Below are positions 2,900-44,160 of a DNA stretch of 64,000 nucleotides, piece by piece. The stretch is from Tetraselmis striata (lineage: Eukaryota > Chlorophyta > Chlorodendrophyceae > Chlorodendrales > Chlorodendraceae): NCBI GenBank assembly GCA_006384855.1, contig VCJN01001151.1, positions 124,001-188,000 of the forward strand, given 5' to 3'. The notes under the pieces were generated by a model. That model was not told where the DNA came from, did not search any database, and saw only the letters and a program-made list of their open reading frames with translations. The stretch's first letter is position 1, and every line of letters begins with the position of its first letter. A program made the position numbers and the translations under genes.

Positions 2900-5800
2900 T
2901 TTTTTTCGCCCCCGGGACAGGACTGGCACCAGTGAAACCCTTGCAGCGTCTCTACGACGGCCGTTTAGGCAGCAATCCAGTTACGGAAAGCCCTGGGTAG
3001 GCGACGCTCCGTTATAGTCATCAAGCAAATTGCCGAAGCATTTCGCAAGACTAATTGGAGGCCAGTGACGGAATTTCCAACACTGTTGGATCACCGTCTA
3101 AAACACTGCCATCAAAATACCCGGCACTGACCACGAAAGGTCCGCCCTACCCGTTTGGGCGTCGGCCCATTCGAGTAATGCGAGTTGGGGCAAGCCCCAA
3201 CCCGCGGAGCAAAGCATTTCGGGAGTGCGATACATGTGCAACAAAAAAGGCAATGTGAGGGAGGGCCCGACGCCATAGCTGGAAAAATTTCCCATTCCCA
3301 GTAAAATCCAGGGCGCCGTGAAGGGAGAGGGGGACCCCGCCCAAAATAAAGGCAGTTAAGTCCTCAGGCGTTGACGCACTAACCTGACTACTAATAAAAT
3401 CCATGAACTCCGGAACTAACAACCCAAAATTATGACGGTGATACCCCCACCGCGGGCACTCCACCAACATATGTTCGATAGTCTCAGATTCACCTCCGCC
3501 ACATGCAGGGCAGTGTTCAAGGAACCGCTCAGGCATGGCATGAATCCGGGCCAATCGGCGGGCAGTGGGAAATACTCGGGTGCGTAATTGCATCATAATG
3601 TGCAACCCGGCCACAACCCCCGCGGGGACACCCACACCGTACTGTGGCAACGGGTTTGACGCATAGGACGCCTGGACATATATACCCCAGGTGTTATTGC
3701 GTGCTAACGATACCGACGATTCGTAACGCGCCCACACGGATGCCTTTATTAGTTTAGCGGCATCGCGCGCGGCTAGTGACCTCCACTCAAGTGGAAGGTG
3801 CGCCCCCTCACCTAGCCCTACGTTCGCCCTAGCTAGTCGATCTAACCACCGCACAGTCCCCGACGTCCACGTGTTAGGGCGCGCCCGACTTGGCTGAGCT
3901 ACTAAATGGGTTATACATGTATTCAAGTCGGATGCTTTAAGGAACGCCCGAGCCCGTGCCGCAGCGGCCGTAGCCTCTATGGGCGCAATATCTAATTCCC
4001 GCATCATCGGTGCAGTGGCTACCCCAGGGGAGTTTTTACCTACCCCAATGAGGCAACGCAAGCACTGATTGAGTACAGTTTGTACTTTATTTGCGCCGCT
4101 AGTTCTATCCATGCCCCATACTTCACACCCGTAAGTTAAAACCGGCAGTACACAGGTTTTAAAAACCGACACACGCACATTAATAGGGATTATGTCCCGT
4201 CCACCGACTAATACCGAATCGAGCGCCTCAATAGCGCGATTACCCTTCTTAACCCGGTCGTCTACTATGTGTTGCATACCTAAATCCGACTTAATGACCG
4301 TACCCAAGTACCTATATTCATTTACAACCGGTACCCGTCCCCCCCCAAGCTGCCATCGGGCAGCTTGTTCGCGTAACGCGGTCTCGTCGGAATATCGGCC
4401 TAATGCCATCACCCCACTCTTAAGTACCCCAAACCCCATAAAATGATCCTCCGCCCACTGCGAGAAGTGGGCGAACATGGCATGCAGGTTATCGAACGAG
4501 CCTGTGATACCAACAGCGTCGTCCGCGTATAACTGACCTGGCACCCTTAGTGGTTGCCTTGCCGTTAATGTGTCAGTGCACCCTGGTACATCACATCCTA
4601 GATGTTCTACCCCATCGAATATATCGTTAATAAATATGTTAAATAGGATGGGGGAAGCGGGGCATCCCAATCGGAGGCCACGCTCTATGGGTATGGGGTC
4701 TGATAGTGTTCCCGGGGCCACCCCTGTCTTGACCCGTACCATACTATCCCTGTATAAAGTTTTAATGAAGGTAAGCATATGACCCGAAACTCCTATGGCT
4801 TGTAGTTTTAGGAATAAAAGCTCATGAGGTACGGTGTCATATGCCTTCCTAAAGTCAATAAACCCCGCGTACGTGGGTAGACCTGCCGCTTGGCGACGAG
4901 CCGCGATATCGAACAAGCTGGCAACTTGCATGGGGCCCTCCTCATTCCGCATAAAACCCGCTTGCCAACGGCGGATTATCCCTTTAGCTTGGCAGACGTC
5001 TTGCAAGCGTTGGGAAATGACGGTCATAAGGAGTTTCATAGCGGCACCCATAATCGAAATGCCCCTATAATTGTCCATAACGGTCGCGTCGCCTTTCTTG
5101 GGCACCGATACTATGGCCGAGCTACGCCACTGCTGGGGGATATAGTTCTTAGTCCATATCCCGTTAATTAAGGCCAGCAATGCCTTGCCAAAATGGCTAT
5201 TCGGGGCGTATATCGCCAATTTTAAAGCCTCTGCAGTGATCCCATCCTGCCCCTGGGCCTTATTATTTTTTAAACGCCTAAGAGCCTTGACTAGTTCCTC
5301 CCATGTTATATGCCCATTTATCCCGTTTAGTGCGGGGGCAATGGGTGGGGATGTACCGTGTCGGTGTTCCCACGCCGCACGGTATATCGCAACCCGTTGT
5401 GCTAGGGGGTGGGGGTCACGCAGCAGCTCCCGATAGTGCCGCGCCCAGCACGCATTGATTTCGCCCGGCTCGGTATGAAGTACCCCTGATACCGGATCGC
5501 GTACTGGCTGGTCGTTTGCGCCCTCGAATGAACCCTGCCCCTTACGGAGAGAGCGCGCCCACTTCCAGAACTCCCGTCTCCCACCACCCTTCTTAGAATC
5601 CTGAACCGCTTTTAGCACGGCCCGCTCCCTCTGGCGGCGGCGGTTATTACGTACTAGTGTCCGGACCCTATGCCGTGCAGCAGCATAATGTGCCGACGCT
5701 AGAGCGGCATCCCGAGGGCCCCTAGTCCCCCGGCACGCCATAAAGGCCATGCGCCGACGATTAATCGCACCTAGGATAGACCGTTGGAGCGGCGGCCCTA

Positions 5801-7237
5801 GGTCACGACGCCTGGGCTTGGTAACAGCCCCTACCCCACGCGCCGCCGACCATATTGCCTGGATAAAGTGATCGGCGCCGGTGTCTAGGGATCCCCCCCC
5901 TCCCGGGGGCCCGCCGTCTACAGGTGGGTCATCTAGAGGGGCGAGCACCGCGAACGGATTAGCGGTGACAAAATCGTGAAACGGCTTGGGCCATTCAGAG
6001 GGAGAGTCACCGTGGGCCGGTTTGGGAATGGACCTTGCAGACAGGCGTTCATGCAGGGGAGGTGGACAGGCATCCTCACGGATGGCGCCCATGGGGAAAG
6101 AAGACAGGACAGGGAAGTGATCGGAGGTGTCCCAAGAGTAGTCCACCCATGCCGAGGGCGAGAGAGGGGGGGGAGGGCCTATGGTGGGAGGCCATGCGAT
6201 GAAGTGGTCGAGAACGCGGCAGCTGCCCCTCCGGCAAGTACCCCGTTCGCGCGCCGATGCATCCCGCGGCCACATGGGCTTACCGCCGGGAAGGCACCGC
6301 CAACGCCTGAGTAGAGCCGTCAACTCCCTTTCATCCATGTTCCAATCCCCCCCCACCACGATCATATCCCTCGGATAACTCGTACGAAGCCGCACCAACT
6401 CTTCGCGCAGGCGGTCCCGATACGGTTCCCCCTGTGAGCCGGTGGGCAAATAGGCCGAGATAAATATAGTGGCCGCGGAGTCACTGCAACCTCCCCCCAC
6501 CCGGACACAGGTCCAACATGGGTGGGGCGCGCCGACTGCCCGCGCCCGGTACGGCGACCGGACTAACACACAACACCCACGTTCCGATGCAACGCGGTCC
6601 CCGAACGAATAGTAGTCAGAGTACCCATTAAAACGCACTCGCATATCGGTCGCCCTAACCGTGGTCTCCTGAATGAGCAGAACATCTACAGATCGCTCGA
6701 ACAGCAACGCGCCAACATCCTCCACCTTAGAAGACAACCCATTCACATTAAGCGTCGCAACGCACAGGTGGGCGGGCATGGGAGGGAGGGGAAAGGGCAA
6801 GGGGTGGGAGGGAGGGGGAGGGCGGGCGGCGTGGCGATCCCAGTACGAGCGGTGTTCCCGCAAGTACCAACCCCACCGGCATGCAAAACGTTGTAAACGC
6901 TCGCGGACATGCGCACCCTGCCCTTGGGTATAATACACATCAAAGCGCACTAGCCCATCCCGCTGCAACACACGATCGATCTTCGGAATGGCCGAAGGCC
7001 GGCCATTAAACGCCCGATCGACGCGGCTCCAAAAGGCAGGTAGTGGCGACGGGTCCCCCGAACAACACACACGACGCAGGGACGCCCCAGCGCCCTCAGC
7101 CAAGTGCCCAACCGTCCAAGGGCGAACCCCCGTCACTATGACGGCTGCACTCGGTGGCGCGCGGTTGCCCATATCGGGGCCAACCTTACCGGAGCTACGG
7201 TTATGTTATACCAGGCGGAAAAACTCGGTAATGCGGT
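2900..7237 (-). mobile_element. Apparently full-length LINE (non-LTR retrotransposon)
   Basis: This 4338-bp element runs right to left. Its 3' end is a short A tail, seen as T's at 2900-2906 on the plus strand. The tail is preceded by a 3' UTR of about 240 bp. Its 5' end lies only 65 bp upstream of the large open frame. A perfect 12-bp target-site duplication flanks it, and the coding frame is uninterrupted, so the insertion is probably recent. The single long frame carries apurinic-type endonuclease, reverse transcriptase and a C-terminal CCHC finger, with no RNase H seen. That order fits an L1-like clade. A separate ORF1 is absent. Either the family has one frame, or this copy lost a 5' part. 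The 3'-terminal 38 bases recur at 46948-46985. Confidence 0.92.
3147..7172 (-). CDS. LINE ORF2-like polyprotein: endonuclease, reverse transcriptase, CCHC finger
   Basis: The 1341-residue product would nick target DNA and reverse-transcribe the LINE RNA at the nick. Residues 1-130 are basic and end in an RNA-binding-like WGWYLREHRSYWDR stretch. The endonuclease starts near residue 137 (ATLNVNGL) and shows LLIQET, GGDWNM and SDHFPVL, the usual metal and catalytic blocks. The reverse transcriptase has FIDFRKAYDTV, then GLRLGCPASPILFNIFI, and YADDAVG near residue 881 as the active site. A CPACGGG...H....C finger lies near residue 1219. The start is a true ATG at 7172, with a 65-nt leader. There are no internal stops, so this copy may be able to make protein. 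The clade (L1-like or a chlorophyte relative) is inferred from domain order only. Confidence 0.93.
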   Translation of the reverse strand: MGNRAPPSAAVIVTGVRPWTVGHLAEGAGASLRRVCCSGDPSPLPAFWSRVDRAFNGRPSAIPKIDRVLQRDGLVRFDVYYTQGQGAHVRERLQRFACRWGWYLREHRSYWDRHAARPPPPSHPLPFPLPPMPAHLCVATLNVNGLSSKVEDVGALLFERSVDVLLIQETTVRATDMRVRFNGYSDYYSFGDRVASERGCCVLVRSPYRARAVGAPHPCWTCVRVGGGCSDSAATIFISAYLPTGSQGEPYRDRLREELVRLRTSYPRDMIVVGGDWNMDERELTALLRRWRCLPGGKPMWPRDASARERGTCRRGSCRVLDHFIAWPPTIGPPPPLSPSAWVDYSWDTSDHFPVLSSFPMGAIREDACPPPLHERLSARSIPKPAHGDSPSEWPKPFHDFVTANPFAVLAPLDDPPVDGGPPGGGGSLDTGADHFIQAIWSAARGVGAVTKPRRRDLGPPLQRSILGAINRRRMAFMACRGTRGPRDAALASAHYAAARHRVRTLVRNNRRRQRERAVLKAVQDSKKGGGRREFWKWARSLRKGQGSFEGANDQPVRDPVSGVLHTEPGEINACWARHYRELLRDPHPLAQRVAIYRAAWEHRHGTSPPIAPALNGINGHITWEELVKALRRLKNNKAQGQDGITAEALKLAIYAPNSHFGKALLALINGIWTKNYIPQQWRSSAIVSVPKKGDATVMDNYRGISIMGAAMKLLMTVISQRLQDVCQAKGIIRRWQAGFMRNEEGPMQVASLFDIAARRQAAGLPTYAGFIDFRKAYDTVPHELLFLKLQAIGVSGHMLTFIKTLYRDSMVRVKTGVAPGTLSDPIPIERGLRLGCPASPILFNIFINDIFDGVEHLGCDVPGCTDTLTARQPLRVPGQLYADDAVGITGSFDNLHAMFAHFSQWAEDHFMGFGVLKSGVMALGRYSDETALREQAARWQLGGGRVPVVNEYRYLGTVIKSDLGMQHIVDDRVKKGNRAIEALDSVLVGGRDIIPINVRVSVFKTCVLPVLTYGCEVWGMDRTSGANKVQTVLNQCLRCLIGVGKNSPGVATAPMMRELDIAPIEATAAAARARAFLKASDLNTCITHLVAQPSRARPNTWTSGTVRWLDRLARANVGLGEGAHLPLEWRSLAARDAAKLIKASVWARYESSVSLARNNTWGIYVQASYASNPLPQYGVGVPAGVVAGLHIMMQLRTRVFPTARRLARIHAMPERFLEHCPACGGGESETIEHMLVECPRWGYHRHNFGLLVPEFMDFISSQVSASTPEDLTAFILGGVPLSLHGALDFTGNGKFFQLWRRALPHIAFFVAHVSHSRNALLRGLGLAPTRITRMGRRPNG

Positions 7238-33000: not shown

Positions 33001-34374
33001 GCCTTTTTATTATTGCGATAGGTGGACCCGCGCTTGATAGCATATGGCCTGGGGTACTATAAATAAAAGGGAAAGGGGTTGGAGTGTTTCTCAGTTTCAC
33101 ATGTACTTGTCAAGGACCGTATGCAATTCGAAGGATATAATAGACTACCAAAACGATAGCAATCCGTCACAGACCCCGCGCCCAGCACGTAGAGTGCATC
33201 ATACCAACAGCCCTAGGCAATCGTGAGTAGCTGCTGCAGTTCTTTGTGTCACTGCCTATCACTCTCAAACAGGCAGTCTTCTCTCGATAAAAGTCATGAT
33301 ATGAGACGAATATTAGTCCGGTCTGTTAAAACGAGTCTGACCACACTGGCAGAAAAAAACAACAATGCCAACGCAATCATCAATAGTCTACCCGTAGATA
33401 TATACACCCAACACTGTTGTTGTATGTAGGAGCAGCTGGCCTCCTGCCTGGCTCTCGGCGCTGATGCGTTGGATAGGAGCATAGAGATAGGATGGGAGCA
33501 CGAAAAAATCGCAAAATAACTTCACAATGGTACTCTTATCGTTACTGTTGCTATATAGGATTTTGGCAATTGCTGTCAAATTTGTTTTGGGACAAGGAGG
33601 GGCGGGAGCCGTGGGGGGGGGGAGGGGGGGGGGGGGGAGCCCACCAGCTGCTAGTGCCGAGTGCACCCGCAGTGGCGGGTCCTCGGGCTCGTGCTGGAAG
33701 CCGTCAAGCCGTACGTGGAGGGCCTGCGTGCACTCCAGCGCTCGGTGCGCTGCCTCCGACAAGCCGCACTCGGCAGTCCGCCCAGCCTGCGACTCAAAGA
33801 CTACAAGAACCGCATCGCCCGCGAAGCAGTCGACGTCCCCTCGGAACTTTACTATAACCGGCAGCATCAAAGAGAAGAACGCCGAGATCGCTAGGCTGAA
33901 GCGCTCCACGCCCTCGCTACCGAGCCGCCTCTGCGCGTCCTGGCTCAGCCTGGTGAACCCCGAGATGTCCAGGATGAGCAGCACGCCGGTGACGCCCTTC
34001 GGCCGCACGGATGACACGCGCTGTCGCACCTCGTCCTCGCTGCCGCCACGAGAGCCAAACGGCCTCGCCAGGCGGCCCTCCGCAAAGGCCGCCGACACGC
34101 GCTCGGGGACGAAGGGCAGCACGGTTCGCGCCAGTACGGAGGCTGCCGACCTCCAGATAGTCGGATCATCGATATGTACCCCGACAGAGTCTTCAGCTGG
34201 CGACAGGGCCTTCTTAGGTCCATCATTTAGCTGGCTGACAGACGGTAGGTCGGGCCTCGAGAGGCGGGCGACCAACCATGACTTCTGGCGCTCGGGGCGC
34301 GCCTCCACACCGGCCGCCGAGGCGGTGGTGTCGAAGCGGGGCGCCACCGCCGCGACAGACGACGCGCAGCCCAT
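21113..34374 (-). CDS. ADCY10-like class III adenylyl cyclase with NTPase and helical repeat region (12 exons)
   Basis: The product, about 1770 residues, should make cAMP from ATP. Exons by splice site and phase: 34374-33645, 32484-31766, 31599-31507, 31274-31055, 30258-29720, 29535-29058, 26517-26138, 25410-25096, 24623-24460, 23548-23258, 22980-22629 and 22150-21113. Every junction agrees in phase. The domain order matches soluble (bicarbonate-type) cyclase ADCY10. First comes cyclase domain C1, with metal aspartates in LDISGF (D136) and FAGDAVLVVF (D187). A Ser/Arg-rich linker and C2 follow (VTILFIVADME ... CEYAVMGDHVNTAARLAG). Then come a Walker A (GEAGVGKSAL), a Walker B (ALLLEDVDALD) and a long alpha-helical, TPR-like tail. 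The start MGCASS predicts N-myristoylation and palmitoylation, so membrane or flagellar placement is likely. Introns hold three SINEs and several C/G homopolymers. The C-terminal frame is uncertain (see findings). Bicarbonate response cannot be judged here. Confidence 0.9.
23849..23856. repeat. SINE 1 target-site duplication, left
   Basis: tagggggt, repeated at 24120-24127 on the far side of the SINE. Confidence 0.7.
23857..24119 (+). mobile_element. tRNA-derived SINE, copy 1
   Basis: This is a roughly 260-bp element with a tRNA-like head (gctcggttgagcgg D-arm, weakened B box gtattgattcc), a shared body and a tail of cttttactttt. It lies in the intron between cyclase exons 9 and 10, antisense to the gene. 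An 8-bp target duplication flanks it. The eroded B box makes this the least well-preserved head of the three copies. Confidence 0.85.
25628..25647. repeat. Poly(G) tract in cyclase intron
   Basis: About 18-20 G's on the plus strand in the intron before exon 8. Confidence 0.9.
26050..26089. repeat. Poly(C)-poly(A) tract in cyclase intron
   Basis: 27 C's followed by 13 A's on the plus strand, which is T then G on the coding strand. It begins about 50-90 bases after the donor of exon 7. Confidence 0.95.
27034..27065. repeat. (TA)n microsatellite
   Basis: About 16 TA units in the long cyclase intron. Confidence 0.95.
27707..27958 (+). mobile_element. tRNA-derived SINE, copy 2
   Basis: Same family as the copies at 23857 and 28398. 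The B box gttcgattcc is at 27768-27777 and a D-arm-like gctgggttgagcgg lies upstream. The 12-mer taccgtaaacgt flanks it at 27695-27706 and 27959-27970. The 3' tail is nearly absent. It lies in the 2.5-kb intron between cyclase exons 6 and 7. Confidence 0.9.
28398..28659 (+). mobile_element. tRNA-derived SINE, copy 3
   Basis: This is the best preserved copy. The D-arm cgctcggtagagcg is at 28421-28434 and a perfect pol III B box, ggttcgattcc, at 28460-28470. A 150-bp unrelated body follows, ending cccggggcgaac and a (CTTTTA)n tail. A 13-bp target duplication, taccggcaatgag, lies at 28385-28397 and 28660-28672. It sits in the same cyclase intron as copy 2 and in the same orientation. Confidence 0.92.
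29058..30258 (-). CDS. Cyclase exons 5-6: end of C2 and NTPase domain
   Basis: Exon 5 (30258-29720) finishes C2 and carries the P-loop GEAGVGKSAL. Exon 6 (29535-29058) carries the hydrophobic Walker B strand GGIALLLEDVDALD and the following sensor-like strand SILFCTSRV. The intron between them is 29719-29536. This STAND-like NTPase is typical of ADCY10-type proteins, and its role there is not settled. Confidence 0.85.
31055..31274 (-). CDS. Cyclase exon 4: core of C2
   Basis: It encodes MDDKGLAMIFVFGLPGYQ, then GISAGTCFCGLVGN and RCEYAVMG, close to the ADCY10 C2 pattern. It joins the next exon to give GDHVNTAARL, with the conserved Asn and Arg of the active site. Confidence 0.9.
31766..32484 (-). 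CDS. Cyclase exon 2: end of C1, linker, start of C2
   Basis: It follows a CTGCAG acceptor and ends at a GTGGGT donor. It opens with the last part of C1 and carries a 120-residue Ser/Arg/Gly-rich linker. It closes with HRVVTILFIVADME, the first strand of C2. That strand lacks the metal-binding aspartate found in C1, as is usual for the second domain of ADCY10-type enzymes. Confidence 0.88.
33645..34374 (-). CDS. Cyclase exon 1: acylation signal and catalytic domain C1
   Basis: It starts at ATG 34374 with MGCASS, a classic dual acylation motif. Residues 127-243 hold C1 up to HSALAAG. The donor GTGGGC is followed within eight bases by a long poly(C) tract (coding strand). The next exon resumes GELAQRCEAFLLG in phase, matching the known C1 fold. 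Confidence 0.9.
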
Positions 34375-35358
34375 CTCGCTCTATTAGAAAGCGCGCCGTT
34401 TGGCCACCTTCGAAACCCTCTCTGGGAGGCAAGCACTGGGTATGGCACTGTGGTGGCACGGCCGTCTTGTCCGGTGCGAGGTATGCGCGGAGTGCGGGGA
34501 GTGAATGTTAGGAATGTTTTAAGTGCGCAGTCGAGCTTGCCAGTGCTATAGGAGCAGGGCAAGCTAAGAACATTGGGGACAGTAGAGTAAGCTACGTGTA
34601 CCCGGGCCGGTACGGAACTGTGAGGGGCAGGCGTAATCCTTAGCGACTACTACTAATCCTTTCCTGGGCTGGGTTTCGATTCTCCGTATTCGTATATCAT
34701 GTGGCGTTCGATTCTGAGCGCTCGGCCCGGCGCTAAGAGGGTTCTGCGTAAATGTAGGCTTTTTCCTCCCCCAGTACTTTGCGTGCATTCTCTTGACGCT
34801 CTCCCTGTAACCAAAAAGTACATATTCTGAGCGCTGCGACCTGCTCTATTTCCGCCCGTCATGTAGCGACTCGTCATGTGCGTGTGCTCGTGCCCACTCT
34901 GCGTCTTCTCATGTTACTGCTTCCACCCTCTAGTCGATGTAGAGGACCTTTCTGATTGCCTTTTATTTTGGTGATTTCCGATATCGCCTTCTGCTGCTAG
35001 CTCATGTAATTAATGTAGCGACTAAGGCTTACTGTAGAAGGCTTTTTTCGATACCCTGTACAGTACTGCTCATCGCGCGCAGACGCAGGTACCGGTAAGG
35101 ATTACAGGGATTGTAATTCACACCATAGCTGCGCCCAGGGTTGGGCTGAAGTCGCGACTTCAGTGCAGCCTGAAGCAACTTCAAGCCGAAGTTTTGGACT
35201 TCAATGGGGGTCTGAAATTTCGTCGAGAGTCGGCCTCATCAGAAGTTTATTAACCAAGCGAATTTTATCGGAAACAGCACGGATATAATTCGCCTTCAAT
35301 TTTAATTATCTGTCTGGGCGGATAGTGCTGATGAATTTATTACAGGTATGAGCGGCTA
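34375..35358. other. Region upstream of the cyclase gene
   Basis: No gene is seen. It should include the 5' UTR and promoter of the minus-strand cyclase, but I find no clear core element. At 35150-35220 there is a cluster of cttcag/ctgaag repeats with a palindrome, ctgaagtcgcgacttcag. Similar repeats lie at 46170-46260. Confidence 0.5.
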
Positions 35359-35363
35359 TTAGC
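35359..35363. repeat. Copia target-site duplication, left
   Basis: ttagc, repeated at 42758-42762. Five bases is the usual length for Ty1/copia integration. Confidence 0.9.
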
Positions 35364-35807
35364 TGTTGATATTAATATGCTGATGAGAGCGCTGAACTGC
35401 TGTGACTTGTAGCTGCTTTTGCTGCTCTAACAGGCTGCCACAGTGGTACTGCACCTGGGTACATTTAGGATTGCGCTCAGATGGGCAACAGGCTCAAGTG
35501 ACTGTTGACCATTCATGTCCACACCAACAAAGCATAAAGTACTAGAAAAGTTACATCAAACGTACCAGAACCAAGGTACAACGGTAACTACTAGAGGCCA
35601 TTTCAGTGGCCAGGATGCCACAGACCGGCTAGGCATGTTGCAAACATGCCCACCAGCCAAGTTGGAGAAACCTAGCCTTTGTAAATTACTTCGTTCTTCC
35701 CACCAGCTCCTCACTCGACCTGCAAGGTCGTGTTGCCGTCCTGTGCACTCACACTCACCTGCTGCTGCTTGTCTGTCAGCTGCAGCCGCCTTGTGTCAAC
35801 ATTAACA
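35364..35807 (+). repeat. Left LTR of the copia element
   Basis: 444 bp, TG...CA ends with TGTT/AACA short inverted termini. The next bases, ggttatgggcctg, are where a primer-binding site is expected. I could not match them to a specific tRNA. Confidence 0.95.
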
Positions 35808-35961
35808 GGTTATGGGCCTGATCGCGCATGTCCCTGCACCACTCATCGTTGTTTTCGTCTTCGCTTCCACCTAGGTTTCTCAACCTCTGGGTTTCTCCGC
35901 TCGTCTCATCCTCGTCGTCCTCTGGCGTCCTCCGTCACCCCTCGTGGGAATCCTTGCTACC

Positions 35962-37164
35962 ATGTCCCATGCGCGCTTGAAGACCAAGGACTATGAGTCC
36001 TTTGCTCGTCCTGGTGATTTTGATGCTGCCTCATGGCTGCTGTGGCAGTTTCAGCTTGAGAGTCGTCTCACCAGCGAGGAGGGGTATTCTAATATCTTTG
36101 TCGCTGATGACACCACAACCTCTGAGGACTGCCACGCCCAAGTCTTCCGCCTGCTGCTCAACCTGCTTCCTGGCAGGACCGCGGCGACTCACCTCCTGGA
36201 CGTCAGCTACCGTTACAACACCCGTAAGGGCTACCACGCCCTGCAAGCCCTCAAGGCCGCTTTTGCTCCGCCACCTGAGACCTACATCTCCACCCTTGAG
36301 GGCTCCCTGTCTACCAAGCAATCTCCTCACGAGGACCTCGAATCGTTCATCGCCCGCCTGATGCTTGCCCGCCTGATGCTTGACAGAGCCGGCACGATTG
36401 TCCCTGACGCCAAGCTGATCAACCACTTCCGTGATGGTCTGCGTCAACCTGACTTCAAGTCTGAGTACGACCACCTTCTTCGCAGCAGGCCTGACACCTT
36501 CCTTGAGGCAGCGAAGGCTGTCCGTCTCACCTCCCGTGCGCCTGCCGCCGAGTCAACTGCTGCAGCATTCCTGGCCGCGCCGCCCCCGTCGCAGCCGAGC
36601 GCCGTGAAGGATGGCAAATTGAGTGAGGCTGATCTCACTGCCCTGGTCGCAAGACTCAAAGAGGAGCTCTCTCCTCCTCAGCCCGGCGCTGAAGATGCAA
36701 CCATGTCCAAGCTCGCCGCCATGCTGTCTTCCTTGGCGTCCGGCGGCGCTGGCCACTCGTCTACGCAGCCGTCAGACCGTCCCGGCGTCAACAAGCGCCG
36801 CTGCTATTACTGTGGCATCCCTGGCCACCCGAAGCGTGACTGCCGAAGCTACGCCCGGGACAAGGCCGCGGGCCGTGTTCACCCTGATCGCAACCCACCT
36901 GCAGGAGACGGCCGCGGCCGCCCTGACGCCGCTGGCGACAAGGAGCATGCCCACGTGGCCAAAGGAATTTGCTTTTGTGGCGACCTCTCACCTCAACCTG
37001 CCCAGCTGCCCCACATCAGCAGAACGTCTGGCGCCCGTCACCACCGACTTCAACGTGATCACCCATTGCACCTTCTGTTGGAGCCGCTCTCACCTGCGCG
37101 AGGAGTGCTACAAGCTCCGGGCGGATATTGCGGATGGCAAGCGTCCCATGCTCCCCGAGGCTGA
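35962..37164 (+). CDS. Copia gag-like part (fossil element)
   Basis: Gag-like region opening at ATG 35962. It has the copia gag helical pattern (SWLLWQFQLESRL; ESFIARLMLARLMLDRA) and a CCHC zinc knuckle, CYYCGIPGHPKRDC, near 36800. Such proteins coat the element RNA and build the particle. It overlaps the pol-like frame. Confidence 0.85.
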   Translation: MSHARLKTKDYESFARPGDFDAASWLLWQFQLESRLTSEEGYSNIFVADDTTTSEDCHAQVFRLLLNLLPGRTAATHLLDVSYRYNTRKGYHALQALKAAFAPPPETYISTLEGSLSTKQSPHEDLESFIARLMLARLMLDRAGTIVPDAKLINHFRDGLRQPDFKSEYDHLLRSRPDTFLEAAKAVRLTSRAPAAESTAAAFLAAPPPSQPSAVKDGKLSEADLTALVARLKEELSPPQPGAEDATMSKLAAMLSSLASGGAGHSSTQPSDRPGVNKRRCYYCGIPGHPKRDCRSYARDKAAGRVHPDRNPPAGDGRGRPDAAGDKEHAHVAKGICFCGDLSPQPAQLPHISRTSGARHHRLQRDHPLHLLLEPLSPARGVLQAPGGYCGWQASHAPRG

Positions 37165-40100
37165 TGTGGTGGTTACATCCATCATGCCACTTGCGGAGCC
37201 TGCCATGGGTGCTGAGCAGGAGACTGATGAGTCTAAGGCGCCCGCGGAGCCAGTGGAGTCTGCTGCGGCGTGTCATGAGTCTAAGGAGCCCGAGGAGTCA
37301 GGCGAGCCTGCCGCGGAGCCTGACGCGCTGGAGGCGTCCGCTGAGGATCCTGACGCCGAGCCCAAGTCACCTCATCGCCGCAACCGCCATCTGCGCCGCC
37401 GCCGCAACCATGCTGTGCGCCGCCGCAACCATGCGGCGCGCCAGGCTGCATGCGCCTTCCTACGCATCAGCGAAGGTGATTACGATGCCTCGAGCGACAA
37501 CAGCATGCCAGGCGCGGTGACTGACAGCTCGTCTGGCGGCAGCTGCACACCGTGTGACTGGAGCCCGCCACAGGAGCGCCCTCCCACACATGATGCCGCT
37601 GCCTACCCGGACGCCGTCCCTCCGTCTACACCGGATGCCATTGATCAACTGATCATGATGACTGCTGTCGACAACCTCTGCGATACCGCCAGCGATGTGG
37701 ATGTCCATGGTGATGACGGCAATGGCGACAGTGACAGCGAGTGCGAGCATGACGCTCTGGAGCGCGCGTTCCACTGGCGCCTCACTGCGTCTCATCGCCC
37801 GGGTGTGTGCTACCCGGCCTACCTCACTCCTACCAAGACCGTTCCCTTCTTCCATCCATGTGGATATACTGCTGCGTTTGCCGCCCAGACGCTGCCGGAC
37901 ATCGCCTCCACACCGCCATTGCCTCACGCCGCCCTTGCCCGCTCGCCGACGCCGTTCCAGCCTCTTCCGTCTGTTACTGATGTCAAGGCCGACCCTGCTG
38001 CTTTTACCAAGGGCAAACCGATTCGGATTTTGTCACTGTGTGCTGGCGCCCTTCACTCCATCGCGGAGGGCCTGGCCGAAGCTGGTGTCACCATTGGCGA
38101 CATGATCTGTTGCGACACCGACAAGCACGTGCGCAAGGCCGGCCGGGTGGAGCAGGAGCGCATGCAAGCCCGCCATCCTCATCAGATCCCTGCCAGCGCC
38201 ATCCACGACTCCTACGGCCGCATCAACCCTGATGTCCAGTCCATCACTGACGACGAACTGGCATCACTTGGGCATGTCGACCTAGTGATTGCCTCACCGC
38301 CCTGCGCCCCGTTCTCAGCCGCCAACCCTCATCGCCTCATGCTCGCCGACCCGCGTGCTGGTGGGCTGTACGGTTCTATTGATGTCATCAAGCGTCTGGC
38401 GTCGATGCAGTCTGGTGGCGTCAACTTCATTCTCGAGAACGTCCCCGGTGCTGCGCGCTGCCATGAGATCATTGAGGCTATGGGCACGCCAATTCTGGTC
38501 CGAGCGCACGAGCTTGGGTCAACAGCCAGACGCGATACAGTGGTATGGAGCAACATCCGTGACATCGATTTCTTTCGCGCTCACTATCAGCAGTCCCAGC
38601 GGGCACCGCTGTCTGTTGGGGAACTCCTTATCACACATGGCTTCTCTCCACGGTGGACCGCTCCTTCTCATCTGCAGCATGGCCTCTTCTCGAAGTTCGT
38701 CTCCCGCCGGGGCAGTTACGCCTACCGCATGACCACCGCCACGACAGACGCACCTGCAGTGCCCGGCAAAAGCATGCTTCTACTCGACGGCGAGCCTGAA
38801 ACCCCCTGTTTGGACATCGTGGCTGTGAGCATGGGCTTCCCGGCTGACACATTGGACATCCCTGGTCTCTCGCTTGATCAGCGCCGCATGATGCTGGGCG
38901 CCTGCATCGATGCCAACATCGGCAGGTGGCTGGCACTTGCCATCGTTAAGGCCAGTGCGTCAGAGGTTGCGCTCCCCAGCATCAAGTCGTTCCCGCAGTC
39001 GTGGGTGCTTGACACCGGCGCCACCTCTCACATGGTGGCCAACATCTCTGACTTCGCGGACTACAAGCCCATTTCCCCGCGCTGGATTCACGGACTGTGT
39101 GCACGGGCCGTCGGCATCGGCACTGTGCGAACCACCATTCCCGACGACAACGGCACTGCTCAGACAGTCGTTCTTCGCAATGTGTTACACGTGCCAGATC
39201 TCGCGTTCCGCTCTGACAACCAGATCTATCGTCTCTTCAGTAGCCGGCAAGCTGAGGAGCAGAATGCCCATCTCCAGATCATCATCAACTCCCGCGGCAG
39301 CCGCCTCGAAGTGGGCGATACCGTCTTCCCGGTGGAGAGCGTCGACCGCCTGTACGTGCTGCACAGCCGCATTGAGCGGTCTGGACCCCCAGCGGGCATC
39401 TCCCTCGTCTCTGCAGTGAAGCAAGACTCCAAGTATCTGTGGCATGCCAGGCTCGGTCACATCCATGAGCGCGCCATGGACGCTCTGCGCGGCACCGCAG
39501 GCACGCAGGTTGACTACTCCACGCAGACGCGTCTACCGTTCTGTCACGCCTGCGCCATGATCAAGGCTACTGCAGCCCCGCGACCGCGCACCTGTCATCC
39601 TCGACCAGATGCACCATGTCACATGCTGGGCTGCGACTTCTGGGAGAACCCCACCAGATCGCTGCAAGGCAACTCCTACGTGTTTGGAGCTGTTGATTAC
39701 GCCAGCAGCTGGTGCTGCATTCTATTTGTCCGCTCCCGCGCCGCCGCTGTCGACTGCCTGCGCCGCGTCCTGGCGATCGCCCGCAGCATGGGGCACACCG
39801 TCCGTGCCCTACGTCTCGACAACGACAGCGTGTTCCACAGTCGCGCCTTCATCGCTGAGTGTGACGCTCATGCACTGCGACGTGAGTATTCTGCTCCCTA
39901 CAGCCAGTTTCAGAATGGGCTGGTGGAGCGTACCTGGCGCACCTTGTGGACCTGGGGCCGCTGCATGCTGGCCTATGCTGGCCTTCCTACCCCGTACTGG
40001 CAGTTTGCCATGGCTACCGCTGCCTACCTGCACAACCGCACCCCCAGGAGCACCGGCGCTGCACCCATGTCCATCGTCGCCGCAGCCGCCCCTGATCTCT

Positions 40101-42319
40101 CCCATTTGCGCGTCTTCGGCTGTCCAGCGTACGTTCATCAACAGCGCGCTCAACGCATCAAGTCGGACCCCTCTGCTCGCCTCGGCATCTTCGTGGGCTA
40201 CGACGCTTTGCACGCGGACGACTGCTACCTCGTCTATTTTCCTGATACCAACACCACCGTGGCAACGCGCAACGTCACGTTCAACGAGCATTGGGTCCTG
40301 CCGGCTACCCCTTCACCTGCCACTGATGTGTGGCGGCATGCCACACAGGAGGGGATGATGTGGCAGGAAGGGCATGCGTCAACTTCAGGAGGGGCATCTA
40401 CCTCCGGAGGGGCATCGACCTCAGGAGGGGCATCCCGCCCACTGCGCCGTCCCGACAGTGACAGTGATGCCAGCGACAGCGACGAAGATTTCTTCTCAAA
40501 CGCCCAGCCTGAGCGAGATGAGACGCCCGAACCGGCCGGAGCCGATGCCCCGCAGCCACCAGCAGTGACTCCCCAGCCTCCTACTCCTGCCGTCCCTGGT
40601 CCAGCACGCCCTACAGTGCCAACCGCCCCGACGTCCAGCGGACCGCCACAGCCTGCCGGCTTGTCCCGATCAAGCCGCCCGCGCATCGACTACCGCAACC
40701 CCGTCAGCGCCCGCCACCAGGCATGGAGCAATCGAGATCATGCCCATCTGGCAGGCGAGGCACCCGGCGATCCGCAGACGCACACGGAAGCTCTGACCGG
40801 TCCAGATGCACCACACTGGCTGGAGGCGATGTGGGTAGAATACCGATCCCTCATAGCCAGGAAGACGTGGGTACTGGTGACCCTACCATCTGGCAGGAAG
40901 GCAGTCAGGTGCAAGTGGGTATTCAAGACCAAGCGCAACGCCGACGGCAGCCTGGCACGCTACAAGGCGCGACTGGTGGCCAAGGGCTTCAGCCAAGTGC
41001 ATGGCATCGACTACAACGACACCTTCGCACCTACCGTGAAGTTCACCACGCTACGCATCATATTTTCCCTGGCAGCCCATTACGGCATGGAGCTCGAGCA
41101 GACCGACATCGACTGTGCGTTCCTCTACGCAGACCTGGAGGAGGATATCTACATGACACAAGCCCCTGAGTTTGAACAGCAAGGCCCCAACGGAGAGGAG
41201 CTGGTCTACCACCTGAAGAAGAGCGTCTATGGCCTCAAGCAGGCGCCGCACGATTGGTACCTCAAGCTGCGCGAGCACATGCTGGGGCAGGGATTTGCTC
41301 AGCTCAAGACCGACCCCGGCGCCTACATCTACCGATCCGGCAACACCTTCAGCATTGTGGCGATCTACGTGGACGACATCCTGATCTGCAGCAACTGCAC
41401 CACCTGGGTGGTTCAGTTCAAGCGCAACCTCGCTGACGAGTTCGACATCAAGGACCTGGGAGCCTGCACCTGGATTCTAGGCATGAAGGTGGAGCGCGAC
41501 CGAGACGCGGGCACCATCAAGATACATCAAGGGAAGTACGTGACCGACCTGCTGGAGCGTTTCAACATGACAGACTGCAACCCTGCTGATATTCCCAGCG
41601 TCGGCAACGATGCTCGCGACTCACCTGCGCTAGACGATCCAAGCATTTTCAGGAGCCTCATCGGCGGACTGCTGTACGCCTCCACTGCCACCAGACCTGA
41701 CATCACTGAGGCCGTCAACCGCCTGTGCAGAGCTATGTCAGCCCCAACTCGCGCACACATGGAAGATGCAAAACATGTTTTGCGCTACCTCAAGAAGTAC
41801 CCTGATCGAGGCATCACCTTCGGCGGGAGCGACGTGCTGCAGCTAGCTGGATGGTCTGACTCAAACCACGCCACGATGACCAGCCAAGGCAAGGCCACCT
41901 GCGGATTCTACTTCACCATCTGCGGAGGAGCAGTGAGCTACAAGTCGCTGTTGCAGCCTATCGTCACCCTATCCACTGCGGAGGCGGAATATGTCGCCAT
42001 GGCAATCGCCACTCAGGAGGTGATGTTCATCAGGCAGATGTTACAGGAGCTGGGACTCGCACTTCACGGCCCTACCCCTATCGGAGAGGACAATCAGGCA
42101 TGCATCGCTATCGCCACCAATGACGTGACATCCAGTCGTACCAAGCACATGGACATCCGCTACCACTTCGTGCGCGAGGCATGCAAGAATGGCGACATCA
42201 GTATCCACTACGTGGAAACCAGGGAGATGGCCGCCGACATGTTCACCAAGCCTCTACGCAACCCTCTCTTCGCCAAGTTTGCTGCAAAGGTCATGCAGTT
42301 CATCGAGGAGGGGTGTTGA
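36623..42319 (+). CDS. Copia pol-like part with methyltransferase-like, protease, integrase, RT and RNase H domains (fossil element)
   Basis: Recognisable content starts near 37050 with a second zinc knuckle, CTFCWSRSHLREEC. A Glu/Pro/Ala-rich linker runs to about 37950. The methyltransferase-like domain is at 38011-38945. The protease (WVLDTGATSHMV) is near 39001. The integrase has its HHCC finger at 39440-39560 and an acidic triad spread over about 39630-39930. Reverse transcriptase runs from about 40900, with YVDDILI near 41370. RNase H lies at 41850-42250 (GWSDSNHA; STAEAEYVA; RTKHMDIRYH). The frame ends three bases inside the right LTR region. Its first 400 bases overlap gag and carry no recognised domain. 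Confidence 0.9.
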   Translation: MRLISLPWSQDSKRSSLLLSPALKMQPCPSSPPCCLPWRPAALATRLRSRQTVPASTSAAAITVASLATRSVTAEATPGTRPRAVFTLIATHLQETAAAALTPLATRSMPTWPKEFAFVATSHLNLPSCPTSAERLAPVTTDFNVITHCTFCWSRSHLREECYKLRADIADGKRPMLPEADVVVTSIMPLAEPAMGAEQETDESKAPAEPVESAAACHESKEPEESGEPAAEPDALEASAEDPDAEPKSPHRRNRHLRRRRNHAVRRRNHAARQAACAFLRISEGDYDASSDNSMPGAVTDSSSGGSCTPCDWSPPQERPPTHDAAAYPDAVPPSTPDAIDQLIMMTAVDNLCDTASDVDVHGDDGNGDSDSECEHDALERAFHWRLTASHRPGVCYPAYLTPTKTVPFFHPCGYTAAFAAQTLPDIASTPPLPHAALARSPTPFQPLPSVTDVKADPAAFTKGKPIRILSLCAGALHSIAEGLAEAGVTIGDMICCDTDKHVRKAGRVEQERMQARHPHQIPASAIHDSYGRINPDVQSITDDELASLGHVDLVIASPPCAPFSAANPHRLMLADPRAGGLYGSIDVIKRLASMQSGGVNFILENVPGAARCHEIIEAMGTPILVRAHELGSTARRDTVVWSNIRDIDFFRAHYQQSQRAPLSVGELLITHGFSPRWTAPSHLQHGLFSKFVSRRGSYAYRMTTATTDAPAVPGKSMLLLDGEPETPCLDIVAVSMGFPADTLDIPGLSLDQRRMMLGACIDANIGRWLALAIVKASASEVALPSIKSFPQSWVLDTGATSHMVANISDFADYKPISPRWIHGLCARAVGIGTVRTTIPDDNGTAQTVVLRNVLHVPDLAFRSDNQIYRLFSSRQAEEQNAHLQIIINSRGSRLEVGDTVFPVESVDRLYVLHSRIERSGPPAGISLVSAVKQDSKYLWHARLGHIHERAMDALRGTAGTQVDYSTQTRLPFCHACAMIKATAAPRPRTCHPRPDAPCHMLGCDFWENPTRSLQGNSYVFGAVDYASSWCCILFVRSRAAAVDCLRRVLAIARSMGHTVRALRLDNDSVFHSRAFIAECDAHALRREYSAPYSQFQNGLVERTWRTLWTWGRCMLAYAGLPTPYWQFAMATAAYLHNRTPRSTGAAPMSIVAAAAPDLSHLRVFGCPAYVHQQRAQRIKSDPSARLGIFVGYDALHADDCYLVYFPDTNTTVATRNVTFNEHWVLPATPSPATDVWRHATQEGMMWQEGHASTSGGASTSGGASTSGGASRPLRRPDSDSDASDSDEDFFSNAQPERDETPEPAGADAPQPPAVTPQPPTPAVPGPARPTVPTAPTSSGPPQPAGLSRSSRPRIDYRNPVSARHQAWSNRDHAHLAGEAPGDPQTHTEALTGPDAPHWLEAMWVEYRSLIARKTWVLVTLPSGRKAVRCKWVFKTKRNADGSLARYKARLVAKGFSQVHGIDYNDTFAPTVKFTTLRIIFSLAAHYGMELEQTDIDCAFLYADLEEDIYMTQAPEFEQQGPNGEELVYHLKKSVYGLKQAPHDWYLKLREHMLGQGFAQLKTDPGAYIYRSGNTFSIVAIYVDDILICSNCTTWVVQFKRNLADEFDIKDLGACTWILGMKVERDRDAGTIKIHQGKYVTDLLERFNMTDCNPADIPSVGNDARDSPALDDPSIFRSLIGGLLYASTATRPDITEAVNRLCRAMSAPTRAHMEDAKHVLRYLKKYPDRGITFGGSDVLQLAGWSDSNHATMTSQGKATCGFYFTICGGAVSYKSLLQPIVTLSTAEAEYVAMAIATQEVMFIRQMLQELGLALHGPTPIGEDNQACIAIATNDVTSSRTKHMDIRYHFVREACKNGDISIHYVETREMAADMFTKPLRNPLFAKFAAKVMQFIEEGC
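38011..38945 (+). other. C5-cytosine DNA methyltransferase-like domain inside copia pol
   Basis: About 310 residues with the ordered motifs of this enzyme fold. There is a nucleotide-binding motif I, ILSLCAGALHSIAEGLAEAG. The catalytic Pro-Cys motif IV is SPPCAPFSAAN, near 38296. Motif VI is LENVPGA, near 38440. An Arg-Arg motif VIII is GSTARRDTVVW, and the C-terminal motif is DQRRMMLGACIDANIGRW. Family members transfer a methyl group from S-adenosylmethionine to cytosine C5. The domain lies in frame with the protease that follows. Activity is not shown, and motifs I and X depart from the common form. Confidence 0.85.
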
Positions 42320-42757
42320 TATTAATATGCTGATGAGAGCGCTGAACTGCTGTGACTTGTAGCTGCTTTTGCTGCTCTAACAGGCTGCCACAGTGGTACT
42401 GCACCTGGGTACATTTAGGATTGCGCTCAGATGGGCAACAGGCTCAAGTGACTGTTGACCATTCATGTCCACACCAACAAAGCATAAAGTACTAGAAAAG
42501 TTACATCAAACGTACCAGAACCAAGGTACAACGGTAACTACTAGAGGCCATTTCAGTGGCCAGGATGCCACAGACCGGCTAGGCATGTTGCAAACATGCC
42601 CACCAGCCAAGTTGGAGAAACCTAGCCTTTGTAAATTACTTCGTTCTTCCCACCAGCTCCTCACTCGACCTGCAAGGTCGTGTTGCCGTCCTGTGCACTC
42701 ACACTCACCTGCTGCTGCTTGTCTGTCAGCTGCAGCCGCCTTGTGTCAACATTAACA
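42314..42757 (+). repeat. Right LTR of the copia element
   Basis: 444 bp, read as identical to 35364-35807. It is preceded by the purine-rich cgaggagggg. Confidence 0.95.
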
Positions 42758-42762
42758 TTAGC
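42758..42762. repeat. Copia target-site duplication, right
   Basis: ttagc, matching 35359-35363. Confidence 0.9.
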
Positions 42763-44092
42763 GACCTACCGCCAACAATTGCTAACTGCAGCCCTGGGAC
42801 TAATTGCGAACGGGTGTATCAAAAGCATCCAACGGCCCCTGTTTCAGCCTCCCTGAGGACATCAACCATGATGCCGATGGGGGGAATCCCAGCCGTTAGA
42901 TCATATCTAAGCTACAGGGAGCCCTTGGGTTGTGTTGGTCAGCGTGCGATGGACTATGGTCATGTTAGTCGAAGTCTCTCCCTGTTGTTAGCAAGATCGC
43001 CAGTGTCCCATTCTGCCACCCGACTACCACAACCCACCCCAGACTGCCACATTACCTCAGGACACCAACTGTGCCCCACCAAGTGTCCCTTCAGGTCACC
43101 TTTGTCGATTGCAAGTGGCGCTGGCGCGTCTGTGTCGCGGTCGTGGCGATGACAATTGCGCGCCCAAGGTATCGTGAGCGATGCGCACATATTTCAAACG
43201 CCGGCACCAACCCACTACTCCACCCTGCCTCTTAGTGGAACTCTAGCGCAGGCACTACGCCTCCAACAAGTTACAAATCCGCCTCATTATCGTTACACGT
43301 CGTCAATTTGCTTCTATGACTGCGGCACGTGCTGATTTGTCACCGTGTGTGTAGGCGAGTTCCGCTGGCTCCGATCATCGCGGTGGCCACCAACGATGCC
43401 GATGAACCAGTCGCCGCCCTCACTCCACTGGAGGACCGGTGCTCCAACCGACGTGCTTGCCAAGGGCCCCTCCCGTTTCACAGCCTCTCGCACCCGGAAC
43501 GTAAGGACTTATGTGATCGTGCTGCGGAGGTGGCGGTGATGCGGCCGGAGCTATTGTACCGGCGGCCGGGGTGCTGGTCGCCGCGCAGCTCAATGTCCGC
43601 ATACCGGTACATGTAGGCGCGCGGCGCAGAATAATAATAATGAGCGGCGCGGGACACCATCTACCGCGGCACATCCGTACACGACGCGATCACATGCCCC
43701 TCTTCGTCACTATATGGCACTTGTCAGTTGTCACTTATCCCCTCGACGCTTCACGTCCCAGTAAGAGACCTACTGCATGATAGTATGGGCGGGACACGGA
43801 AATACGAAACGGCGCAGCGGCTGCACCGTAGTCGCCTCGGCGCGGCGCATCGGCGCTGCGCATCGGCACGGAACAACGCGGGGCAGCGGCGCGCTGCTGG
43901 CGCCGGCCCGCCCGTGCTGGCCCCTCATCCACACGCACGAAGAAGCATATAGCCAATCCAAACCGGAATACAGTCGTCCCAACTCATAATACACATAATT
44001 CCTCACTTTCTTGCCACTCTCACCTTCCACGTTGCACCGCGCGCACCCCTATGTATTTTGCTTGTCGGCAATATATAATATATATATACATA

Positions 44093-44160
<68 letters not shown>

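Follow-up and report, generated by a model that had tools for sequence, protein, structure and literature searches.

Does a retrotransposon of a green alga carry its own cytosine DNA methyltransferase (DNMT), and if so, what might it do with it? DNA methylation normally silences transposons, and methyltransferase-carrying elements are therefore a paradox. The question is raised by a stretch of 64,000 nucleotides from Tetraselmis striata (GenBank assembly GCA_006384855.1, contig VCJN01001151.1, forward-strand positions 124,001 to 188,000; hereafter the window, with positions counted from its first letter), in which a Ty1/copia long terminal repeat (LTR) retrotransposon at 35364-42757 encodes a methyltransferase-like domain on the plus strand. 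A first reading of this DNA, the original prediction, had located the domain between gag and protease, in the protease frame, at 38011-38945; its place and frame were confirmed, and its limits proved slightly narrow, 37973-38995 describing it better. Judged from its sequence, it is a genuine DNMT3-like cytosine-C5 DNA methyltransferase.

Identity of the methyltransferase domain

Motif I, motif IV with its catalytic cysteine, motif VI and motif X of the C5-methyltransferases (MTases) follow one another in order in the domain, and the blocks LSLCAGALHS, SPPCAPFS and ENV named in the original prediction were recovered at their places in the open reading frame (ORF) and in an alignment of six retroelement families. 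Motif I, ILSLCAGALHS at 38027-38059, is assigned to S-adenosylmethionine binding and contains C23 and G25, which are invariant across the six families, as are M287, G288, G309, D313 and N315 of motif X (MGFP...LGACIDAN, about 38831-38917). Motif IV (SPPCAPFS, 38294-38317) and motif VI (ENV, 38435-38443) were found both in the alignment and in a survey of 53 loci, in which the motif IV cysteine was present at 53 of 53 loci, ENV at 51 and motif VIII at 49, the survey using permissive patterns and loci picked by similarity. The predicted Arg-Arg block was identified in the alignment as motif VIII (STARRDTVVWSN, 38519-38554), where only the first canonical arginine of R-x-R is retained and the second is replaced. 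The Pfam C5-methyltransferase profile PF00145 matched the cut-out piece 37991-38986 at 22.5 bits (cut-off 22, E 8.7e-5) and the domain within the whole window ORF at 19.0 bits, under the cut-off, while it was passed by other retroelement domains from the same genome (families B, C and D and a long interspersed nuclear element, LINE, described below) inside the scanned ORFs. Nearly the full length of the domain (residues 6-325) matched the phage DNA methyltransferase family phrog_116 (E 5e-11). When checked against the possibility of a non-methyltransferase Rossmann protein, the domain grouped with C5-methyltransferases by Pfam, phage family match, trees and fold.

The assignment to a DNMT3-like kind comes from fold and motif spacing. 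An AlphaFold model built with 18 phage rows was usable (mean predicted local distance difference test, pLDDT, 65.3), and DNMT3 structures were the best fold match of its predicted core (model residues about 6-226), with the model confident over about residues 1-205 only and query template modelling scores of 0.37-0.43. An earlier model from nine sequences was discarded (pLDDT 39.6). The short spacing between motifs VI and VIII agrees with this closest fold: the domain resembles the catalytic domain of DNMT3A/B in motif order, in the S-x-x-x-R...W-x-N block and in the interval separating ENV and the motif VIII arginine (32 vs 34). It differs from DNMT3A/B in its identity of about 22% over the aligned core, in lacking the second motif VIII arginine and in its surroundings, which are gag, protease and the remaining parts of pol where DNMT3A/B has chromatin-reading domains. 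Phage DNMT3-like MTases (L065-L067, L069) share the motif order and a nearly equal ENV-to-arginine spacing (33), and compact phage MTases (L082-L107) share the motif order and the ENVPGA block, while their arginine block lies at 23-26 (21 of 21). Unlike the element domain, both phage groups are free-standing, and among the rows sampled they fall outside the retroelement clade.

Distribution and constraint among Copia families

The host is a chlorophyte of the class Chlorodendrophyceae, in agreement with the chlorophyte copia considered in the original prediction. In its 224 Mb genome the domain was scored at at least 121 places (437 candidates); this listing is a lower bound, and reverse transcriptase (RT) loci with no listed domain upstream may not all truly be without one. 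The carriers comprise family A, to which the window element belongs, and families B, B2, C and D, while family E is a non-carrier Copia. Besides A, whole ORFs were read for B (L031, 2299 codons), C (L032, 2164 codons) and D (L033, 2130 codons), whereas B2 (L035, L045) was read from DNMT to RT only, with a 2483-codon open frame at its place. The order gag, DNMT, protease, integrase, RT is common to A-D, Pfam giving no integrase core (rve) match in C. Identity to the window domain is 47% in B, 45% in B2 and 31% in both C and D, and because the motifs recur in other families (31-47% identity), at the same position and in open ORFs, the domain is not a chance resemblance. The domain lies less than 6 kb upstream of RT at 32 of 34 loci of family A, as expected if it belongs to the family rather than to one copy, at 18 of 22 loci of B with B2 and at 19 of 24 of C, with medians of 1.9-2.3 kb. 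In family E the one ORF read (1561 codons) passes from gag straight to protease, and no listed domain was found upstream of RT at any of the 63 E loci tested. Family E also occurs as repeated near-identical copies per contig (C776, C805, C1230, C1435, C1776, C440 and others), possibly a centromere or other array.

Six long domain-carrying proteins are present among the eukprot Tetstr1 models, one at 97% identity, and a further search added a seventh. One protein (P0004, eukprot Tetstr1 427508) joins a GidB-type rRNA methyltransferase to Copia gag and DNMT, which is either an insertion or a faulty gene model. Two JGI metagenome proteins (P0002 and P0010) are relatives at 36-40% identity that have lost ENV; P0002 continues into a Copia-type protease, and both seem to come from decayed elements of this type.

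The ratio of nonsynonymous to synonymous substitution (dN/dS) in the family B domain is 0.20-0.26 (four pairs, dS 0.10-0.20), and the comparison of B with B2 gives about 0.22, at near-saturated dS, as compared to 0.10 for RT of the same pair; the domain is therefore constrained, though less so than RT. B2 offered a single pair with no synonymous change. These values bear on the view that the domain is a passenger, that is, a host or viral sequence captured once and carried without use. Retrotransposons do acquire sequence, and family E is abundant without the domain, yet the open frame, position and motifs have been kept across families in which RT identity falls to 37-42% and DNMT identity to 31%, and a dN/dS of about 0.2 in family B is at odds with disuse, so that we regard a mere passenger as very improbable.

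A proposed role in the Copia life cycle

The data show what the domain is, that its position in the polyprotein is fixed, and that it is spread over several families and conserved. As to packaging, release, catalytic activity, substrate and benefit, we infer a scheme in which the Gag-Pol of a forerunner common to several of the alga's Copia families acquired a DNMT3-like domain that its descendants then retained. The domain would be produced within Gag-Pol and packaged alongside the element RNA and reverse transcriptase, the protease directly behind it would free it wholly or partly, and it would then methylate cytosines of the element's own new complementary DNA (cDNA) before or at integration, new copies thereby arriving pre-marked. 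Its placement immediately before the protease within Gag-Pol points to a domain that is packaged together with RNA and RT and acts on cDNA, and we give this account, of a domain made in Gag-Pol, co-packaged and methylating the element's own cDNA, about an even chance of being correct.

Several results weigh against it, in addition to the limited extent of the confident fold. In each of the six retroelement families Thr or Ala stands in place of the second motif VIII arginine; both motif VIII arginines sit in the active site of HhaI, and with the second replaced throughout, activity is not assured and is not claimed here. Family E is abundant without the domain, accounting for 94 of 150 genome RT rows. 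Outside family B the copies are near-identical, with few changes and noisy dN/dS: 0.32-0.55 in A (five pairs), 0.30-0.77 in C (three) and 0.08-0.18 in D (two). If carriers methylated CpG sites of their cDNA, CpG-to-TpG change should be raised over that of non-carriers, but CpG relative to other transitions per site was 1.34 in A, 2.38 in B, 3.89 in C and 1.27 in D, as compared to 1.74 in the DNMT-less family E (22 copies over about 4 kb for A, 5 and 4 copies of the DNMT for B and C, 8 copies of up to 2.6 kb for D, and 13 copies of RT for E). Some excess of CpG transitions is thus seen in all five families with no split by carriage, and the CpG observed/expected values of A-D (0.85-0.97) bracket that of E (0.91). 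Finally, DNMTs of Klebsormidium and of LINEs were without activity in yeast, a result that its authors called inconclusive (PMC5890265). There is, then, no visible footprint of self-methylation by the CpG measures, and the suggested marking of copies by the element itself is left unsupported, CpG decay failing to separate carriers from family E. This null result is not a refutation, because the methylation context could be non-CpG or the marking brief.

The same observations can be read to mean that the domain is a folded DNMT relative that is weakly catalytic or non-catalytic and serves as a nucleic-acid-binding module, for example by steering integration towards a target in chromatin or DNA, or by aiding particle assembly. 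The loss of the second motif VIII arginine in six of six families, the altered motif IV of family C (GPCCEPWS) and the unseen CpG footprint all fit such a module; a pure binder would have no need of the motif IV cysteine, ENV and the motif I and X residues, which are invariant in the six-family alignment at identities down to 31%, and we consider binding alone rather unlikely.

A LINE with the same enzyme lineage

A sister domain is carried by a LINE-type element of the same genome (contig C2687, G000:C2687:11500-25400; L057:1-7692, L064). Its 3505-codon ORF contains an endonuclease-like region (recognized by eye), RVT_1, a PCIF1-like domain (PF12237, E 8e-15), PF00145 and RNase H, and so holds two methyltransferase-type domains, the PCIF1-like one lying ahead of the C5-methyltransferase. 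The LINE DNMT sits between RT and RNase H and shares with the Copia domains the blocks ENVPGA, GS..AR, KFV..GS.A.R and D-x-N. Four copies of the LINE were found, the three others being 99.1-99.6% identical in DNA over the fetched 2-4 kb. In a genome search with the LINE domain the best rows after its own copies were Copia C (about 36%) and Copia D (39% over part), and no free-standing C5-MTases were seen among the matches listed.

This LINE bears on a further alternative, in which the domain methylates the genomic RNA of the element or its transfer RNA (tRNA) primer. A LINE would be expected to have no free cDNA, PCIF1, whose likeness precedes the DNMT in the LINE, is an RNA m6Am methyltransferase, and a Copia particle packs RNA first; RNA methylation has also been raised for LINE DNMTs in the 2018 report (PMC5890265). 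The motif VI-VIII spacing and the fold, however, place the domain with DNMT3 and not with the tRNA enzyme DNMT2, and an RNA substrate is in our judgement unlikely.

Phylogeny and origin of the domain

The six retroelement DNMTs (A, B, B2, C, D and LINE) form one clade, apart from the sampled host, phage and bacterial-type enzymes, with support of 100/100 in a tree of 16 rows and 98/96 in one of 28 rows. The Copia DNMTs alone are supported at 88/91 and 96/93, respectively, and branch as ((C,D),(A,(B,B2))), with C and D together at 85/83 and 89/67. This agrees, except for E, with the Copia RT tree ((C,D),(E,(A,(B,B2)))), supported at 97/97 on six rows without an outgroup. A clade of LINE, C and D was not rejected in the 16-row tree (approximately unbiased test, AU, p 0.118). 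Deeper down, the 16-row tree joins the retroelement clade to DNMT3A and the phage DNMT3-like MTases (97/95), the sole DNMT3 row being a partial PDB sequence. With 12 compact phage MTases added in the 28-row tree the retroelement DNMTs fall nearer to these (96/92), a nearness that is biased since the added rows were found by retroelement-derived patterns, and the DNMT3 grouping there has an AU p of 0.27.

The simplest history from these trees would be one capture before the Copia families split, loss in E and a Copia-LINE passage in either direction. Two or more captures from one now-vanished source may have occurred instead. One capture with loss in E and two captures at the same place take two steps each; a single capture is the better fit to the common position and to the clade formed by the DNMTs. 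No close kin were found in IMG/VR, which gave 26 loci at 26-41% identity only, or in GTDB genomes, where none of 19 pattern matches was confirmed. Protein searches, which depend on 5-residue words in common and on comparable lengths, yielded matches from Tetstr1, Logan and JGI metagenomes alone.

Among the other C5-MTases of the alga's own genome (337 candidates, 123 rows scored) are a DNMT2-like gene (L050), exon-split genes (L047 and L048), a multi-copy MTase of 325 codons (L046) and bacterial-like ones (L049 and L053). L046, L049, L050 and L053 lie outside the retroelement clade in both trees; the L047 and L048 pieces were left out of the trees, and an intron-cut DNMT3-like host gene could have been missed. 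A study of MMETSP transcriptomes was unable to find DNMT3 among the green algae of that collection (PMC9998398), which fits a lost host gene without proving the loss. We tentatively suggest, at somewhat less than an even chance, that the DNMT3-like lineage is owned by retroelements and is older than its Copia carriers, having crossed between the LTR (Copia) and non-LTR (LINE) classes with no free-standing host relative left. In that case a green-algal lineage would retain a DNMT3-like gene only within its mobile elements, which would act with it on their own copies.

The multi-copy enzyme is of interest in itself. L046 (G000:C1993:505-1440) is a free-standing C5-MTase with MEQSA replacing ENV. 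It is one of six rows of this 325-codon type, of which one was read, the others lying on C776, C1647, C2337, C355 and C1455. Three loci (L051, L052 and L054) are partial or altered kin of it, similar-scoring rows occur on C1230, and C776 and C1230 also hold many Copia E copies. This enzyme may be another mobile methyltransferase.

Structure and surroundings of the window element

The window element has the protease, integrase, RT, RNase H order, LTRs, target-site duplication of about 5 bp and polypurine tract of Ty1/copia. Its 444 bp LTRs (TGTTGA...TTAACA; 35364-35807 and 42314-42757) are 100% identical and are flanked by TTAGC on either side (35359-35363 and 42758-42762, by sequence and script), which together point to a recent insertion. 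A putative primer-binding site (GGTTATGGGCCTGAT, 35808-35822) follows the 5' LTR and is presumably similar to the initiator-tRNA-Met site, internal (half), known from Drosophila copia; such an internal site, with half-tRNA priming, is used by Drosophila copia and Ty5. The gag frame runs from ATG to stop at 35962-37164 (ORF list and Pfam) with a CCHC zinc knuckle read by eye (CYYCGIPGHPKRDC, 36799-36846; zf-CCHC E 0.0016, 18.8 bits, under the 20.8 cut-off). The pol-frame ORF (36623-42319, 1898 codons stop to stop) ends inside the 3' LTR and contains a second CCHC-like knuckle recognized by eye, with no Pfam match (CTFCWSRSHLREEC, 37067-37108). Behind the methyltransferase domain, Pfam places in Copia order an aspartic protease region (Pol_BBD, 39002-39205, with DTG at 39011-39019), the gag_pre-integrase zinc-binding region (39350-39565; 26.4 bits, just below the 28.4 cut-off), the integrase core rve (39611-39904), the SH3-like domain of integrase (40088-40291) and the reverse transcriptase RVT_2 (40862-41599); RNase H was recognized by eye alone from a TAEAEY block, as was the polypurine tract (GAGGAGGGG, 42305-42313). 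The gag and pol frames are offset in this copy although its LTRs are identical, and eight other genome copies of the family have a single open frame of 2144-2147 codons, seven of them one of 2147; the offset is a recent lesion or a sequencing error.

Beside the element lie a long TA repeat (44089-44156) and an adjoining minus-strand ORF (33388-34380) that, by eye only, has the look of a class III nucleotide cyclase (LLILDISGFTRLS). Another minus-strand ORF of 1352 codons (3147-7205) looks like a LINE endonuclease and reverse transcriptase, and no methyltransferase was seen in it by eye.

Comparison with known elements and implications

The original prediction named dinoflagellates and charophyte algae as sources of DNMT-bearing retrotransposons, in agreement with a 2018 report that describes DNMTs in LINE and DIRS elements of Symbiodinium and in a Gypsy of Klebsormidium, with the SymbioDIRS DNMTs active de novo in yeast (PMC5890265). 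The closest parallel by host is KnitGypsy-Dnmt3 of Klebsormidium nitens (de Mendoza 2018, PMC5890265), likewise a DNMT3-type domain inside Pol of a green-lineage LTR element under purifying selection; that element is named Gypsy, whereas the Tetraselmis elements have the Copia order (integrase before RT), belong to a chlorophyte, comprise several families and share the lineage with a LINE. Symbiodinium, with SymbioDIRS-Dnmt3 and SymbioLINE-Dnmt, resembles Tetraselmis in having high-copy DNMTs in more than one retroelement class of one genome. According to the same source, its DIRS and LINE DNMTs are separate lineages (Dnmt3 and orphan), in contrast to the one clade of Tetraselmis Copia and LINE, and the SymbioLINE DNMT mostly occupies a separate upstream ORF, unlike that of the Tetraselmis LINE, which shares an ORF with RT and RNase H and is placed between the two. 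A 2025 paper mentions Copia and DIRS (PMC12344493), and a review names DAM-/DCM-encoding Ty3/Gypsy and DIRS in green algae among others, giving no detail (PMC6338049). No DNMT-bearing retroelements of Tetraselmis, or detailed ones of another chlorophyte, were found in the literature searched, most subscription papers and Repbase being outside its scope. As far as that literature shows, three things are new: chlorophyte Copia elements with a DNMT, the sharing of one DNMT lineage by several Copia families in the presence of a family that lacks it, and a LINE whose DNMT belongs to that lineage.

The presence of related domains in several element families, including another class, suggests that they have long been useful to these elements, and from the shared clade it seems that unrelated retroelement classes can exchange a DNMT as a module. 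With carrier Copia, an abundant non-carrier Copia and a carrier LINE in one nucleus, methylation and spread become directly comparable, and the paradox of methyltransferase-carrying elements becomes testable in one organism.
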